From an uncultured Pelagibacteraceae bacterium (lineage in GTDB: Bacteria > Pseudomonadota > Alphaproteobacteria > Pelagibacterales > Pelagibacteraceae), in the NCBI GenBank assembly GCA_902589395.1, contig CACIST010000001.1:186001-250000 (forward strand): a DNA stretch of 64,000 nucleotides, given 5' to 3'. Made by a program: the position numbers and the translations under genes. The notes under the pieces are model-generated. The model worked only from the letters and a program-made list of their open reading frames with translations. It searched no databases and was not told the origin of the DNA. This document shows, piece by piece, positions 39,161 through 43,153 of this stretch; the first letter of the stretch is position 1; every line of letters begins with the position of its first letter.

Positions 39161-42100
39161 ATGAATCTAGACTTATTAGTTCCTGATATAGGAGACTTTG
39201 AAAACGTTGAAATAATCGAAGTACTCGTAAAAAAAGGGGACAAAATCAATAAAAATGACCCTGTTGTAACTTTAGAAAGTGATAAATCAAGTGTTGAAGT
39301 ACCGTCCAATTATGAAGGCACAATTGAAAATATAAATGTGAAAATTGGTGATAAAGTTTCTAAAGGTGATTTAATATTAACTCTATCTTCAGAAAATAAA
39401 GATGAACATGAGAAAATTAGTAAAACTTTAGACGAAAAAATTCCACCTTCAACAGAGAAATTGATAGAGGAAGCAGAAACTGCTTCAAAATCTGACACAA
39501 AAGTTGAAACAGAAGTTATAGAGCCAACACAAATCAAGCAAACAAGATTGATTAATGAAGTTAAAATGGTTAGAAGTAACGACGATATTGATCCTGTTGA
39601 AACTAAAGAGTGGTTAGACTCCTTAAGTGCAGTTTTGCAAAATGATGGTTCTGAAAGAGCTCATTTTTTAATTAAGCAATTAATTGATCAATCTTATAAA
39701 GCTGGATCTAAAATTCCTCATACTCAAACTACTCCTTACGTTAATACGATACCACCTGAAGAAGAAAAAAGATCACCTGGAGACCAAAACATAGAACGTA
39801 AGTTAAGATCATTAATTAGATGGAATGCTGCTGCAATGGTAGTAAGAGCAAATAAAAAATATCCCGAACTTGGTGGCCACATAGGGACATTTGCATCAGC
39901 TGCAACATTATATGATGTTGGGATGAATCATTTTTGGAGAGCAAAAAATAACAAATTTGGAGGTGATCTAGTATATTTTCAAGGTCATAGTGCACCAGGA
40001 ATGTACGCAAGAGCTTTTCTTGAGGGAAGATTAAATGAAAAGCAGTTAGATAGATTTAGACAAGAAGTACAAACTGGTGGACTTTCATCTTATCCTCATC
40101 CTTGGCTAATGCCAAATTTTTGGCAGTTTCCAACAGTTTCAATGGGTATTGGTCCAATGTTAGCAATATATCAAGCAAGATTTATGAAATACCTAATTAA
40201 TAGAGGGTTAATTAAAGATGAAGGAAGAAAAGTTTGGGCTTTTCTTGGAGATGGAGAAATGGATGAACCTGAGTCACTTGGGGCAATTGGTTTAGCGGCG
40301 CGTGAAAATTTAGATAATTTAATATTTGTTGTAAACTGCAACTTACAAAGATTAGACGGTCCAGTAAGAGGAAATGGAAAAATAATACAAGAATTAGAGG
40401 GTATTTTTAGAGGAGGTGGCTGGAACGTTTTAAAAGTTATTTGGGGATCTTATTGGGACTCACTTTTAGCAAATGATAAGACGGGACATTTAGTAAAAAT
40501 TATGAATGAGACCGTAGACGGTGAATATCAAGCATTTAAAGCAAGAAATGGACTGTATGTAAGAGAAAAGTTTTTTGGCAAATATCCTGAAACTACAGAA
40601 TTAGTCTCATCAATGTCAGATACTGATATTTGGAGGCTTAATAGAGGTGGACATGATCCTCATAAAGTTTATGCTGCATACGATAAAGCGGTCAATCATA
40701 AAGGAAGCCCCACAGTCATAATAGCCAAAACTATAAAAGGCTATGGTATGGGTAAAAGTGGTGAAAGTGTAAACACTACTCACCAACAAAAGAAATTGGA
40801 TGTTGACGATTTAATGTATTACAGGGATAGGTTTGATGTTCCTTTAACAGACTCACAAGTTAAAAATATTGAATATTTCAAGCCAGATGAAAATTCTGAA
40901 GAAATTAAATACCTAAAAAAAAGAAGATTGGAACTTGGTGGATTTATACCAGAGAGAACATCATATTCAAAACCGATTAAAGCACCAGTTAAAGATATTT
41001 TTGATTTTATGAAAAATTCTACTGGCGAAAAAGAAATGTCTACAACAATGGCACTGGTAAGAATGTTAACTAATCTTTTGAGAGACAAAAATGTTGCACC
41101 AAAATTGGTTCCAATTATTCCCGATGAAGCTAGAACATTTGGAATGGAGGGTTTCTTTCAAAAAATAGGTATTTATGCTCATGAAGGTCAAAAATATGAG
41201 CCAGAGGACTCAGCACAACTTTCATCTTATAGAGAAGAAAAAAGTGGTCAGGTATTAGAAGAAGGTATTACAGAAGCTGGTTCAATGTCTTCTTGGATAG
41301 CAGCTGGAACAGCATATACAAATCATGATATTGAAATGATACCAATTTATCTTTTCTATTCTATGTTTGGCTTTCAAAGAATTGGAGATTTTGCTTGGGC
41401 TGCAGGAGATAGTCAAGCGAGAGGCTTTTTAATTGGTGCGACTGCAGGAAGAACAACACTTGCAGGAGAAGGTCTTCAGCACCAAGATGGTCATAGTCAT
41501 TTGTTAGCATCAACAATTCCAAACTGCATTTCTTATGATCCAACATTCCATTATGAATTAGCTGTGATTTTTAGAGAAGGTTTAAGAAGGATGCATGAAA
41601 AAAATGAAAATATTTTTTATTATATTACAACAATGAACGAAAATTACTCTCACCCTGCAATGCCAGATGATTGTGAGGATGGAATTCTGAAGGGAATGTA
41701 TAAAATTAAAGAAACATCGGGCTCTAAAGAAGCAAAAATTCAATTATTAGGCTCTGGAACAATACTAAGAGAAATGATGGCAGCATCAGAAATCCTTAAA
41801 AAAGAATATCAGGTCGATAGTGAAGTTTGGAGTGTTACTAGTTTTAATGAGTTAAGAAAAAATGGAATGGAAGTTGAAAGATTTAACCTTCTAAATCCGG
41901 CAGAAACAAATAAAAAATCATATGTAGAGGAATGTTTAGGAAAACAACAAGGTCCTATCCTTACAGCCACTGACTATATGAGAATAAATGCTGATCAAAT
42001 AAGACCTTTTACAAAAAAGAGTTTTTATTCATTAGGTACTGATGGATATGGAAGAAGTGATACAAGAAAAAACTTAAGAAATTTTTTTGAAGTAGATAAA

Positions 42101-42226
42101 GAACACATAGTTGCTTATAGCCTTAGCGTCTTAGCCAATGAACAGCTTGTTGCATCAAAGTATGCTGAAGATGCATTCAAAAAGTATAAAATTGATAAAA
42201 ACAAACCCATGCCAACAAAAATGTAA
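39161..42226 (+). CDS. aceE: Pyruvate dehydrogenase E1 (homodimeric AceE type) with N-terminal lipoyl domain
   Basis: Thiamine-diphosphate-dependent decarboxylase of the pyruvate dehydrogenase complex, 1021 residues. Residues 1-80 are a lipoyl domain (VPDIGDFENVEIIEVLVKKG; lipoyl Lys K42 in ESDKSSVEVPS). A charged linker rich in E, K, S and T covers about 80-135. The AceE core starts near 139 (DDIDPVETKEWLDSL) and has the ThDP motif FLGDGEMDEPES...VVNCNLQ near 362. E. coli AceE has about 887 residues and no lipoyl domain; 1021 equals that core plus the extension. The E2 gene behind it has lost its lipoyl domain. Confidence 0.95.
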   Translation: MNLDLLVPDIGDFENVEIIEVLVKKGDKINKNDPVVTLESDKSSVEVPSNYEGTIENINVKIGDKVSKGDLILTLSSENKDEHEKISKTLDEKIPPSTEKLIEEAETASKSDTKVETEVIEPTQIKQTRLINEVKMVRSNDDIDPVETKEWLDSLSAVLQNDGSERAHFLIKQLIDQSYKAGSKIPHTQTTPYVNTIPPEEEKRSPGDQNIERKLRSLIRWNAAAMVVRANKKYPELGGHIGTFASAATLYDVGMNHFWRAKNNKFGGDLVYFQGHSAPGMYARAFLEGRLNEKQLDRFRQEVQTGGLSSYPHPWLMPNFWQFPTVSMGIGPMLAIYQARFMKYLINRGLIKDEGRKVWAFLGDGEMDEPESLGAIGLAARENLDNLIFVVNCNLQRLDGPVRGNGKIIQELEGIFRGGGWNVLKVIWGSYWDSLLANDKTGHLVKIMNETVDGEYQAFKARNGLYVREKFFGKYPETTELVSSMSDTDIWRLNRGGHDPHKVYAAYDKAVNHKGSPTVIIAKTIKGYGMGKSGESVNTTHQQKKLDVDDLMYYRDRFDVPLTDSQVKNIEYFKPDENSEEIKYLKKRRLELGGFIPERTSYSKPIKAPVKDIFDFMKNSTGEKEMSTTMALVRMLTNLLRDKNVAPKLVPIIPDEARTFGMEGFFQKIGIYAHEGQKYEPEDSAQLSSYREEKSGQVLEEGITEAGSMSSWIAAGTAYTNHDIEMIPIYLFYSMFGFQRIGDFAWAAGDSQARGFLIGATAGRTTLAGEGLQHQDGHSHLLASTIPNCISYDPTFHYELAVIFREGLRRMHEKNENIFYYITTMNENYSHPAMPDDCEDGILKGMYKIKETSGSKEAKIQLLGSGTILREMMAASEILKKEYQVDSEVWSVTSFNELRKNGMEVERFNLLNPAETNKKSYVEECLGKQQGPILTATDYMRINADQIRPFTKKSFYSLGTDGYGRSDTRKNLRNFFEVDKEHIVAYSLSVLANEQLVASKYAEDAFKKYKIDKNKPMPTKM

Positions 42227-43153
42227 ATGTCTGATCAATCAAATAAAATATCTGCAAGTCCAAAAGTTAGAAAATTTGCAAGAGAACTTGGAGTAGATAT
42301 AAATAATGTTAAGGGAACAGAGAGATCAGGTAGGGTTGTTGAAAAAGATTTAAAAGACTTTGTCTCATCTAGAATCAATAATCCCCAGAATAATAGTGAA
42401 AGACAAAAAGAAAAAATTATTAAAAGCGAATATCAACATTCAGATTTTGGGGAAGTTGAAATTAAAGATATTCCTAGGGTAAAAAAAATAGCAGCTCCAC
42501 ATCTTGTAAATTCGTGGACAAACATTCCACATGTAACTAACCATGATGAGGCTGATATTACAGAAATGGAAGAATTTAGAAGCTCAATAAAAGATAATTA
42601 TACAGGAGAAAGAATTAAAATTACTCCTCTTGCATTTATTATAAAAGCATTGGTACTTTCACTAAAAAAATTTCCATCATTTAATTCATCAATTGATGAT
42701 ATTGAAAATGGAAAGATTACTTTTAAAAAGTATTTTCATGTTGGTATCGCAGTTGATACTCAACATGGACTTATGGTTCCTAAAATTAGAGATGCTAATC
42801 AAAAAGATATTAATCAGTTAAGTGAGGAATTAAAAAAAGTAAGTGATGATTGTAGAAATTTAAAAATTGATAAAAAAGAATTCTTTGGAGGATCAATGAC
42901 TATCACAAGCTTAGGTGGCATAGGTGGTTCGTTTTTTACACCAATAATTAACTTTCCAGAAGTTGCTATACTTGGTGTTGGTAGAAGTTATAAAAAACAG
43001 GTATTTATTGATGGTAAATTTGTTCCAAGAACCATGCTTCCACTATCTCTATCATATGATCACAGAATTATAGATGGTGCTGAGGCTGCGAAGTTTAATA
43101 ACGAATTAAAAGATAATCTTGGGTCTAATTTTGCATATAACTTGAGTAAATGA
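42227..43153 (+). CDS. aceF: Dihydrolipoamide acetyltransferase E2 lacking a lipoyl domain
   Basis: Acetyl-transfer core of the pyruvate dehydrogenase complex, 308 residues. It begins directly with the peripheral-subunit-binding domain (ASPKVRKFARELGVDINNVKG, about 9-45), then a linker and the CAT-like acyltransferase domain (about 75-308) with H279 and D283 in DHRIIDGAEA. A normal E2 has one to three lipoyl domains in front; none is encoded here, and the ATG follows the aceE stop with no gap, so none is hidden. It overlaps the dioxygenase gene by 4 nt. Confidence 0.93.
   Translation: MSDQSNKISASPKVRKFARELGVDINNVKGTERSGRVVEKDLKDFVSSRINNPQNNSERQKEKIIKSEYQHSDFGEVEIKDIPRVKKIAAPHLVNSWTNIPHVTNHDEADITEMEEFRSSIKDNYTGERIKITPLAFIIKALVLSLKKFPSFNSSIDDIENGKITFKKYFHVGIAVDTQHGLMVPKIRDANQKDINQLSEELKKVSDDCRNLKIDKKEFFGGSMTITSLGGIGGSFFTPIINFPEVAILGVGRSYKKQVFIDGKFVPRTMLPLSLSYDHRIIDGAEAAKFNNELKDNLGSNFAYNLSK

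Follow-up and report, generated by a model that had tools for sequence, protein, structure and literature searches.

An E1-borne lipoyl domain beside an E2 without one in the pyruvate dehydrogenase locus of a Pelagibacteraceae bacterium

Organization of the pyruvate dehydrogenase locus

The window analysed here is a stretch of 64,000 nucleotides from an uncultured Pelagibacteraceae bacterium of the SAR11 group (GenBank assembly GCA_902589395.1, contig CACIST010000001.1, positions 186,001 to 250,000), and all coordinates below are positions within it. On its forward strand lies a locus for the pyruvate dehydrogenase complex (PDH), in which the lipoyl domain is situated on the pyruvate dehydrogenase subunit (E1, AceE) and is missing from the acetyltransferase subunit (E2). 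The aceE gene (39161..42226, 1021 amino acids including the stop) was delineated by its open reading frame (ORF), Pfam, NCBIfam and a predicted structure, and comprises a lipoyl domain, a linker and a homodimeric pyruvate dehydrogenase E1. The adjoining aceF-type gene (42227..43153, forward strand, 308 amino acids including the stop; ORF, Pfam and NCBIfam) encodes an E2 without a lipoyl domain.

The lipoyl domain of E1 occupies residues 2–79 (39164..39397), as delimited by a lipoyl profile. The Pfam family Biotin_lipoyl (PF00364) matches residues 6–75 with an E-value of 2.3e-19 and a score of 69.4 bits, the cut-off being 22.1. Residues 5–114 of E1 are in addition covered by the AceF model TIGR01348 (93.5 bits), which assigns the domain to the PDH (AceF) type, and its closest solved relatives are PDH lipoyl domains, with Escherichia coli AceF (7b9k) at the top. 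In the predicted structure the domain is built of strands, with a predicted local distance difference test score (pLDDT) of 77–88 in blocks of ten residues. Lys42 (codon 39284..39286), the predicted lipoylation site, lies within the motif ESDKSS in the turn joining strands 34–39 and 44–48.

The linker, residues 80–138 (39398..39574), is modelled with low confidence (pLDDT below 50 at residues 81–134). A helix is predicted inside it at residues 97–108 (39449–39484, PPSTEKLIEEAE); variants of this motif, such as PKDTEKII-DAE, are common to many lineages, including deep ones, and are absent from others. The linker is followed by the N-terminal segment of E1 proper, residues 139–182 (39575..39706), which matches chain C of 9h1n, a 49-residue E1 peptide, in a phmmer search (E 1.4e-7). 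The corresponding segment docks on the E2 subunit-binding domain in E. coli, and its conservation in the window is read from the sequence. Nuclear magnetic resonance work, as reviewed in PMC6270654, likewise locates E2 docking in the N-terminal region of E1. The NCBIfam aceE model (TIGR00759) matches residues 140–1019 at full length and above its cut-off (1435.1 bits against 859.9), and a fold search places the E1 body with E. coli E1p, whose structures share 54–57% identity with it.

The E2 protein begins with a peripheral subunit-binding domain at residues 9–42 (42251..42352; PF02817, E3_binding, E 6.6e-12), and residues 7–52 match the E2 chain of 9h1n. The acetyltransferase catalytic domain follows at residues 78–298 (42458..43120; PF00198, 2-oxoacid_dh, E 1.5e-75), adopts the fold of the E. 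coli E2p core (4n72), and contains SYDHRIIDGA with His279, which is invariant across 34 aligned E2 proteins. Neither Pfam nor the lipoyl profile detected a lipoyl domain in the 308-residue ORF. Against the AceF model TIGR01348 this E2 scores 332.9 bits, under the cut-off of 552.1; it is an AceF-type core and not a canonical AceF. Both observations from which the first-pass annotation had started, a lipoyl domain with Lys42 in ESDKSS on E1 and an E2 that sets in directly at its subunit-binding domain, are hence borne out by the profile matches. Since the docking segment of E1 and the subunit-binding domain of E2 are both kept, the anchor between the subunits is retained and the arm has been added ahead of it.

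The TAA stop codon of aceE directly abuts the ATG of the E2 gene, which leaves no intergenic room for an overlooked lipoyl domain. The same layout recurs in four genomes (loci L007–L010) that were assembled separately and whose E1 shows 98–99% identity, and the E2 lipoyl domain is also missing from 44 of the 111 loci scored across the family; the arrangement is therefore no assembly oddity. E1 and E2 are separate ORFs with the TAA between them, and the E2 catalytic domain is not fused to E1. A fusion of the two by read-through was considered, as E1 and E2 share a reading frame in 24 of the 44 loci with a lipoyl-less E2. It is not favoured, because 43 of the 44 use TAA as the stop and the remaining 20 have the two genes in different frames.

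Other lipoyl carriers and pyruvate dehydrogenases

The window's own genome is 80% complete and spread over 46 contigs, and because of this incompleteness near-complete relatives were examined as well. In the own genome four proteins match the biotin/lipoyl family, namely SucB, AceE, an AccB-like carrier of 140 amino acids adjoining biotin carboxylase, and a small carrier; the names SucB, AccB-like and small carrier were assigned by reading the ORFs. Two E2 proteins are present, SucB and the E2 of the window. The single full-length lipoamide dehydrogenase (Lpd, the E3 subunit; 471 amino acids) adjoins SucB and is filled by TIGR01350 at residues 1–460. A lipoyl domain on E3 was rejected for this genome, the 471-residue Lpd frame being without a lipoyl match. 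The E1-alpha family PF00676 finds a SucA-type frame of 853 amino acids and a weak match in a 639-residue frame in the own genome, and no short E1-alpha.

Among 46 genomes, eight, the own one included, possess a lipoyl-less AceF-type E2, and each of these holds exactly two E2 proteins, SucB and the lipoyl-less one; the loci of the seven relatives confirm that the E2 lipoyl domain is missing. In eight lipoyl-less relatives of 92–99% completeness (G051 at 99%, and G083, G093, G105, G127, G152, G001 and G248), PF00364 detects AceE, SucB and a third protein, a carrier of about 120–150 amino acids, in every genome, with one further marginal match of 22 bits in G127. The own genome and the near-complete lipoyl-less relatives yielded neither a third E2 nor a stand-alone PDH lipoyl protein. 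A complete, lipoyl-bearing AceF elsewhere, which would have undercut the first-pass reading, was accordingly not detected in the own genome, as far as it is complete, or in the seven near-complete relatives. An alternative PDH of the PdhA/PdhB type was rejected in the lipoyl-less relatives, with PF00676 showing no short E1-alpha in seven of the eight. The remaining genome, G127 of the window's clade, has an extra E1-alpha-like frame of 322 amino acids (G127:C2:24474-25364) and no third E2. For lipoylation, LipA was found in 10 and LipB in 9 of the 11 genomes tested, and LipA is present in the own genome.

Other PDH-related frames were observed in the family. Six genus mates of 90–97% completeness (G097, G154, G178, G260, G278 and G310) have a SucB-type E2, and no AceF-type E2 was found in them; G097 contains an E1-alpha-like frame of 352 amino acids and no AceE match. 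In addition, some genomes contain a second, distant AceE-like frame of about 885–900 amino acids, in which the profile match begins after the lipoyl part (G009:C1:12976-13551, G040:C1:231062-231643, G304:C1:187957-188535, and others).

Distribution of the E1 lipoyl domain

The aceE model exceeds its cut-off in 328 of 397 Pelagibacteraceae genomes. A profile of 15 rows, spanning the lipoyl domain, the linker and the start of E1, was run on samples of the order, the class and the phylum. In the order sample it matched 136 of 197 genomes and, among the matches listed, all are in the window's family. Within the class sample, 12 of 385 genomes match at an E-value of 1e-20. Five of them belong to Pelagibacteraceae and have an AceE to which the lipoyl part is joined; in the other matching genomes the AceE rows start at model position 104 or later, with no lipoyl-bearing AceE. 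The phylum sample gave matches in 162 of 398 genomes. Among those listed, AceE starts at positions 1–5 only in two Pelagibacteraceae genomes, while most matches start at position 84 or beyond and a few at 54–72, most of the latter running through stop codons. Sixteen loci from outside the family that start early or have long frames gave no lipoyl match, and two family controls were positive; G264, a family member examined alongside the early-start loci, is cut at a contig end. The best 80 of at least 590 aceE loci comprise 33 from Pelagibacteraceae and 47 others, and no lipoyl domain was found on AceE in these 47. A candidate AceE frame of 1601 amino acids in G1033 has no extra domain and is probably a chance open frame.

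In the same order, the AceE profile matched none of the 12 listed genomes of a sister family (f238; G1136–G1147). In each of the three tested with PF00676 (G1136–G1138) there is a SucA-size frame and no short E1-alpha, with a weak extra match in G1138.

For the family itself, 111 aceE–aceF loci were scored, two of 113 having been dropped (L020, with E2 off the contig, and L203, with no E2 in the slice); the set favours high-scoring and near-complete genomes, holds near-copies and is no census. The lipoyl profile finds the E1 domain in 106 of the 111, and all 106 domains carry ESDKSS. In three of the five loci without an E1 match (L028, L034 and L146) the start of E1 is missing at a contig edge. 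In the other two (L147 from G177 and L148 from G314) a lipoyl domain lies upstream in another frame and the frame is broken in the E1 linker, by either an assembly error or a genuine splitting of the gene. Among the 111 loci there is no clear case of an E1 that has lost its lipoyl domain. The N-terminal lipoyl domain on AceE, which the first-pass annotation had proposed to map across SAR11 lineages, is thus a feature of 106 of the 111 loci of this family and of no checked match outside it.

Three loci, from genus g9 and one g12 genome, encode an AceE of about 1110–1125 amino acids with two tandem lipoyl domains, bearing ESDKSSV and ESDKSSM, and their E2 keeps one domain (L149:1563-4889, L150:1503-4832 and L151:1612-4986).

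Probable repeated loss of the E2 lipoyl domain

The E2 lipoyl domain is present in 67 of the 111 loci, with one ESDKSSV each, and absent from 44. Lipoyl domains on both E1 and E2 are seen in 64 of the 67, and in 42 of the 44 loci with a lipoyl-less E2 the E1 domain is in frame. On the E1 tree the lipoyl state of E2 needs eight changes, at least seven of them forced by well-supported branches. The tree of the E2 catalytic domain also gives eight changes, at least five forced, and an IQ-TREE analysis of 60 of 118 rows gives eight, at least six forced. These trees use seven outgroup rows, 40 of the 47 non-SAR11 loci having been left out. As the seven outgroup rows and the deepest branch of the family all carry the E2 lipoyl domain, the simple reading is that the E2 copy would have been lost about eight times in Pelagibacteraceae.

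This history alters one part of the first-pass annotation, which had described the lipoyl domain as moved from E2 to E1. The placement of the arm on E1 and its absence from E2 stand, and a single relocation does not: the E1 domain is family-wide, 67 of the 111 loci still keep the E2 domain, and the losses from E2 appear to be several.

In the lipoyl-domain tree (84 rows, 78 columns), the E1 and E2 domains of the family form one SAR11 clade with a support of 98, apart from those of other bacteria. This single clade fits a duplication inside the complex, although the alignment is short, and the E1 domain probably arose from the complex's own lipoyl domain. The tree is poorly resolved and the order of the E1 and E2 copies is unsupported; a few E2 domains fall among the E1 domains with weak support, so some lineages may have regained the E2 copy. 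In the proposed scenario, E1 would have received a duplicate of the complex's lipoyl domain no later than the base of Pelagibacteraceae, and the E1 copy would have made the E2 copy dispensable, leading to its repeated loss.

In genus g5, E2 has a second lipoyl-like domain (L159:3541-5079, L160:276-1835 and L204:344-1876), in which EDEENA, EDDENS or EDEESA stands in place of ESDKSS. It is without the lysine, a degenerate domain still in place.

Selection and linker length

The E1 lipoyl domain is under strong purifying selection. In the window's clade, the ratio of nonsynonymous to synonymous substitution rates (dN/dS) is 0.027 for the lipoyl domain (91 pairs) compared with 0.029 for the last 600 codons. 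The values for the lipoyl domain are 0.032 and 0.062 in two other clades with a lipoyl-less E2, and 0.092 and 0.048 in two clades that keep the E2 domain; all are rough, as dS is high. A value of 0.68 for the catalytic part in the clade of L015 was set aside as a presumed artefact of comparing the sequences without gaps.

The distance from the lipoyl lysine to the start of E1 averages 97.9 residues where E2 is lipoyl-less (42 loci) and 87.7 where E2 has the domain (60 loci); not counted are L012, L014, L157 and L173, in which the anchor is missing, and five rows whose E1 motif could not be read. In a phylogenetic regression (n = 99, the three two-lipoyl E1 proteins left out), the E1 linker is longer by 9.4 residues where E2 is lipoyl-less (standard error 1.4, p 2.6e-9, lambda 1). 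This p-value rests on only about eight events, and the result is accordingly graded as suggestive. At that grade, a longer linker fits an arm that must reach further. The purifying selection, the kept docking segment and the suggestively longer linker fit an arm working from E1.

Discussion

Most likely the locus encodes a functional pyruvate dehydrogenase complex in which E1 bears the sole swinging lipoyl arm, and from the sequence evidence we put the probability of this reading at roughly 85%. Several observations weigh against it. With the own genome 80% complete, the absences noted there lean on the relatives. Of the 11 genomes tested, the own one and G152 gave no LipB and G127 gave no LipA. 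In L147 and L148 the E2 is lipoyl-less, yet the E1 lipoyl domain is split from E1 by the frame break. As for the linker, six of the eight loss clades exceed their lipoyl-bearing sister in length and two do not (98.9 against 101 and 104 against 105 residues), and an independent-pairs test of linker length against E2 loss is non-significant at all seven thresholds (seven pairs, lowest median p 0.125).

In a complex of this kind, LipA and LipB would lipoylate Lys42 of E1, and E1 would reductively acetylate the lipoyl group of its own dimer or of a neighbour. With E1 docked on the subunit-binding domain of E2, the arm would swing on the E1 linker to the catalytic site of E2, where acetyl-CoA would be formed, and would then be reoxidized by E3 (Lpd) bound to a different subunit-binding domain. 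The subunit-binding domains of E2 would be shared between E1 and E3, and the number of arms would follow the occupancy by E1 and not the number of E2 chains. It is reasonably probable, at a lower confidence than the working arm itself, that all arms are on E1, that E2 serves as scaffold and acetyltransferase, that E1 occupancy sets the arm number, and that this state had about eight parallel origins from an intermediate with arms on both subunits, tuned by lengthening of the E1 linker.

Other functions of the E1 domain have to be weighed. It could be mainly an extra arm, a docking or regulatory element, or a redox sensor, serving as the arm by default where E2 is lipoyl-less, perhaps in a slow complex. 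The 67 loci that retain an E2 domain, the occurrence of two lipoyl domains on E1 in some genomes and the helix-forming linker motif, common to many lineages though not all, are compatible with such a role. However, E2 appears to have dropped its copy about eight times while E1 retained its own, which suggests that natural selection in the ocean is satisfied by the E1 domain by itself, and a mainly accessory role is unlikely.

Alternatively, the E1 domain might not be the working arm, and SucB would lend its lipoyl domain to the PDH in trans, in the way that AceF serves actinobacterial OdhA. Besides SucB no further E2 with a lipoyl domain was detected, the full-length Lpd adjoins SucB, and lipoyl supply in trans is documented in actinobacteria (PMC10415282, PMC8146983). 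But the E1 domain is as constrained as the catalytic part (dN/dS 0.027 against 0.029) and keeps its lysine motif in all 106 cases. It is of the PDH type, and the SucB domain sits on a very long branch away from it. Residues near the lipoyl-lysine turn are moreover reported, in a review, to help specify the interaction with E1p (PMC6270654). Borrowing from SucB is therefore rated slightly lower still, as improbable. An artefact (a missed E2 start, an assembly deletion, or a lipoyl-bearing AceF in the missing fifth of this 80% complete, 46-contig genome) is highly improbable, given that the E1 stop abuts the E2 start, that E2 is lipoyl-less in 44 of the 111 loci, and that near-complete genomes with this layout hold only two E2 proteins.

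Compared with known complexes, the E1-borne arm inferred for the window shares components with several and coincides with none. The AceE/AceF complexes of E. coli and Azotobacter have the same homodimeric E1, and their E1 docking segment, subunit-binding domain and E2 core are homologous. However, the E2 of E. coli (7b9k) has three lipoyl domains and its E1 none, whereas the only one in the window's complex is on E1; the E. coli E1 chain (886 residues) matches only residues 140–1018 of the window's E1, which shows that it has no lipoyl domain. In Zymomonas mobilis, whose E2 also keeps a lipoyl domain, the PDH likewise carries one on an E1 subunit (E1-beta), but its E1 is a heterotetramer (PdhA/PdhB) of another family, and the window's E1 belongs to TIGR00759. 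The Zymomonas placement is given by a 1999 title on E1-beta cited in PMC7873978, the citing text naming PdhA instead. In Mycoplasma hyopneumoniae the carrier domain is also outside E2, but it sits on E3 (PdhD), while the window's Lpd has no lipoyl domain; the same source also mentions lipoyl domains on E3 in Neisseria and Alcaligenes (PMC7873978). The actinobacterial OdhA/KGD (E1o-E2o) shows comparable shuffling of E1 and E2 domains, with an E2 catalytic domain that depends on the lipoyl domain of another chain. There, by contrast, the E2 catalytic domain is fused to E1 and the lipoyl groups are taken in trans from AceF (PMC10415282, PMC8146983 and PMC7568260), whereas in the window the lipoyl domain is fused to E1 and E2 is separate.

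Lipoyl domains outside E2 are thus already known. For AceE and for SAR11, no description of a lipoyl domain turned up in a search of the open-licence literature. One SAR11 paper, in the portion available, names aceEF and extra aceE copies and mentions no lipoyl domain there (PMC10030771).

Textbook models of the 2-oxoacid dehydrogenases place the swinging arm on the E2 core, and active-site coupling, stoichiometry and the competition of E1 and E3 for the core are all framed on an E2-borne arm. In this abundant marine group, some lineages seem to have transferred the arm to E1, with forms that bear arms on both subunits, or two on E1, as living intermediates and several end points of independent origin. 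Such intermediates and end points would allow one to test directly whether an arm needs its tether on the E2 core and how flux is limited by the length of the linker and the number of arms.

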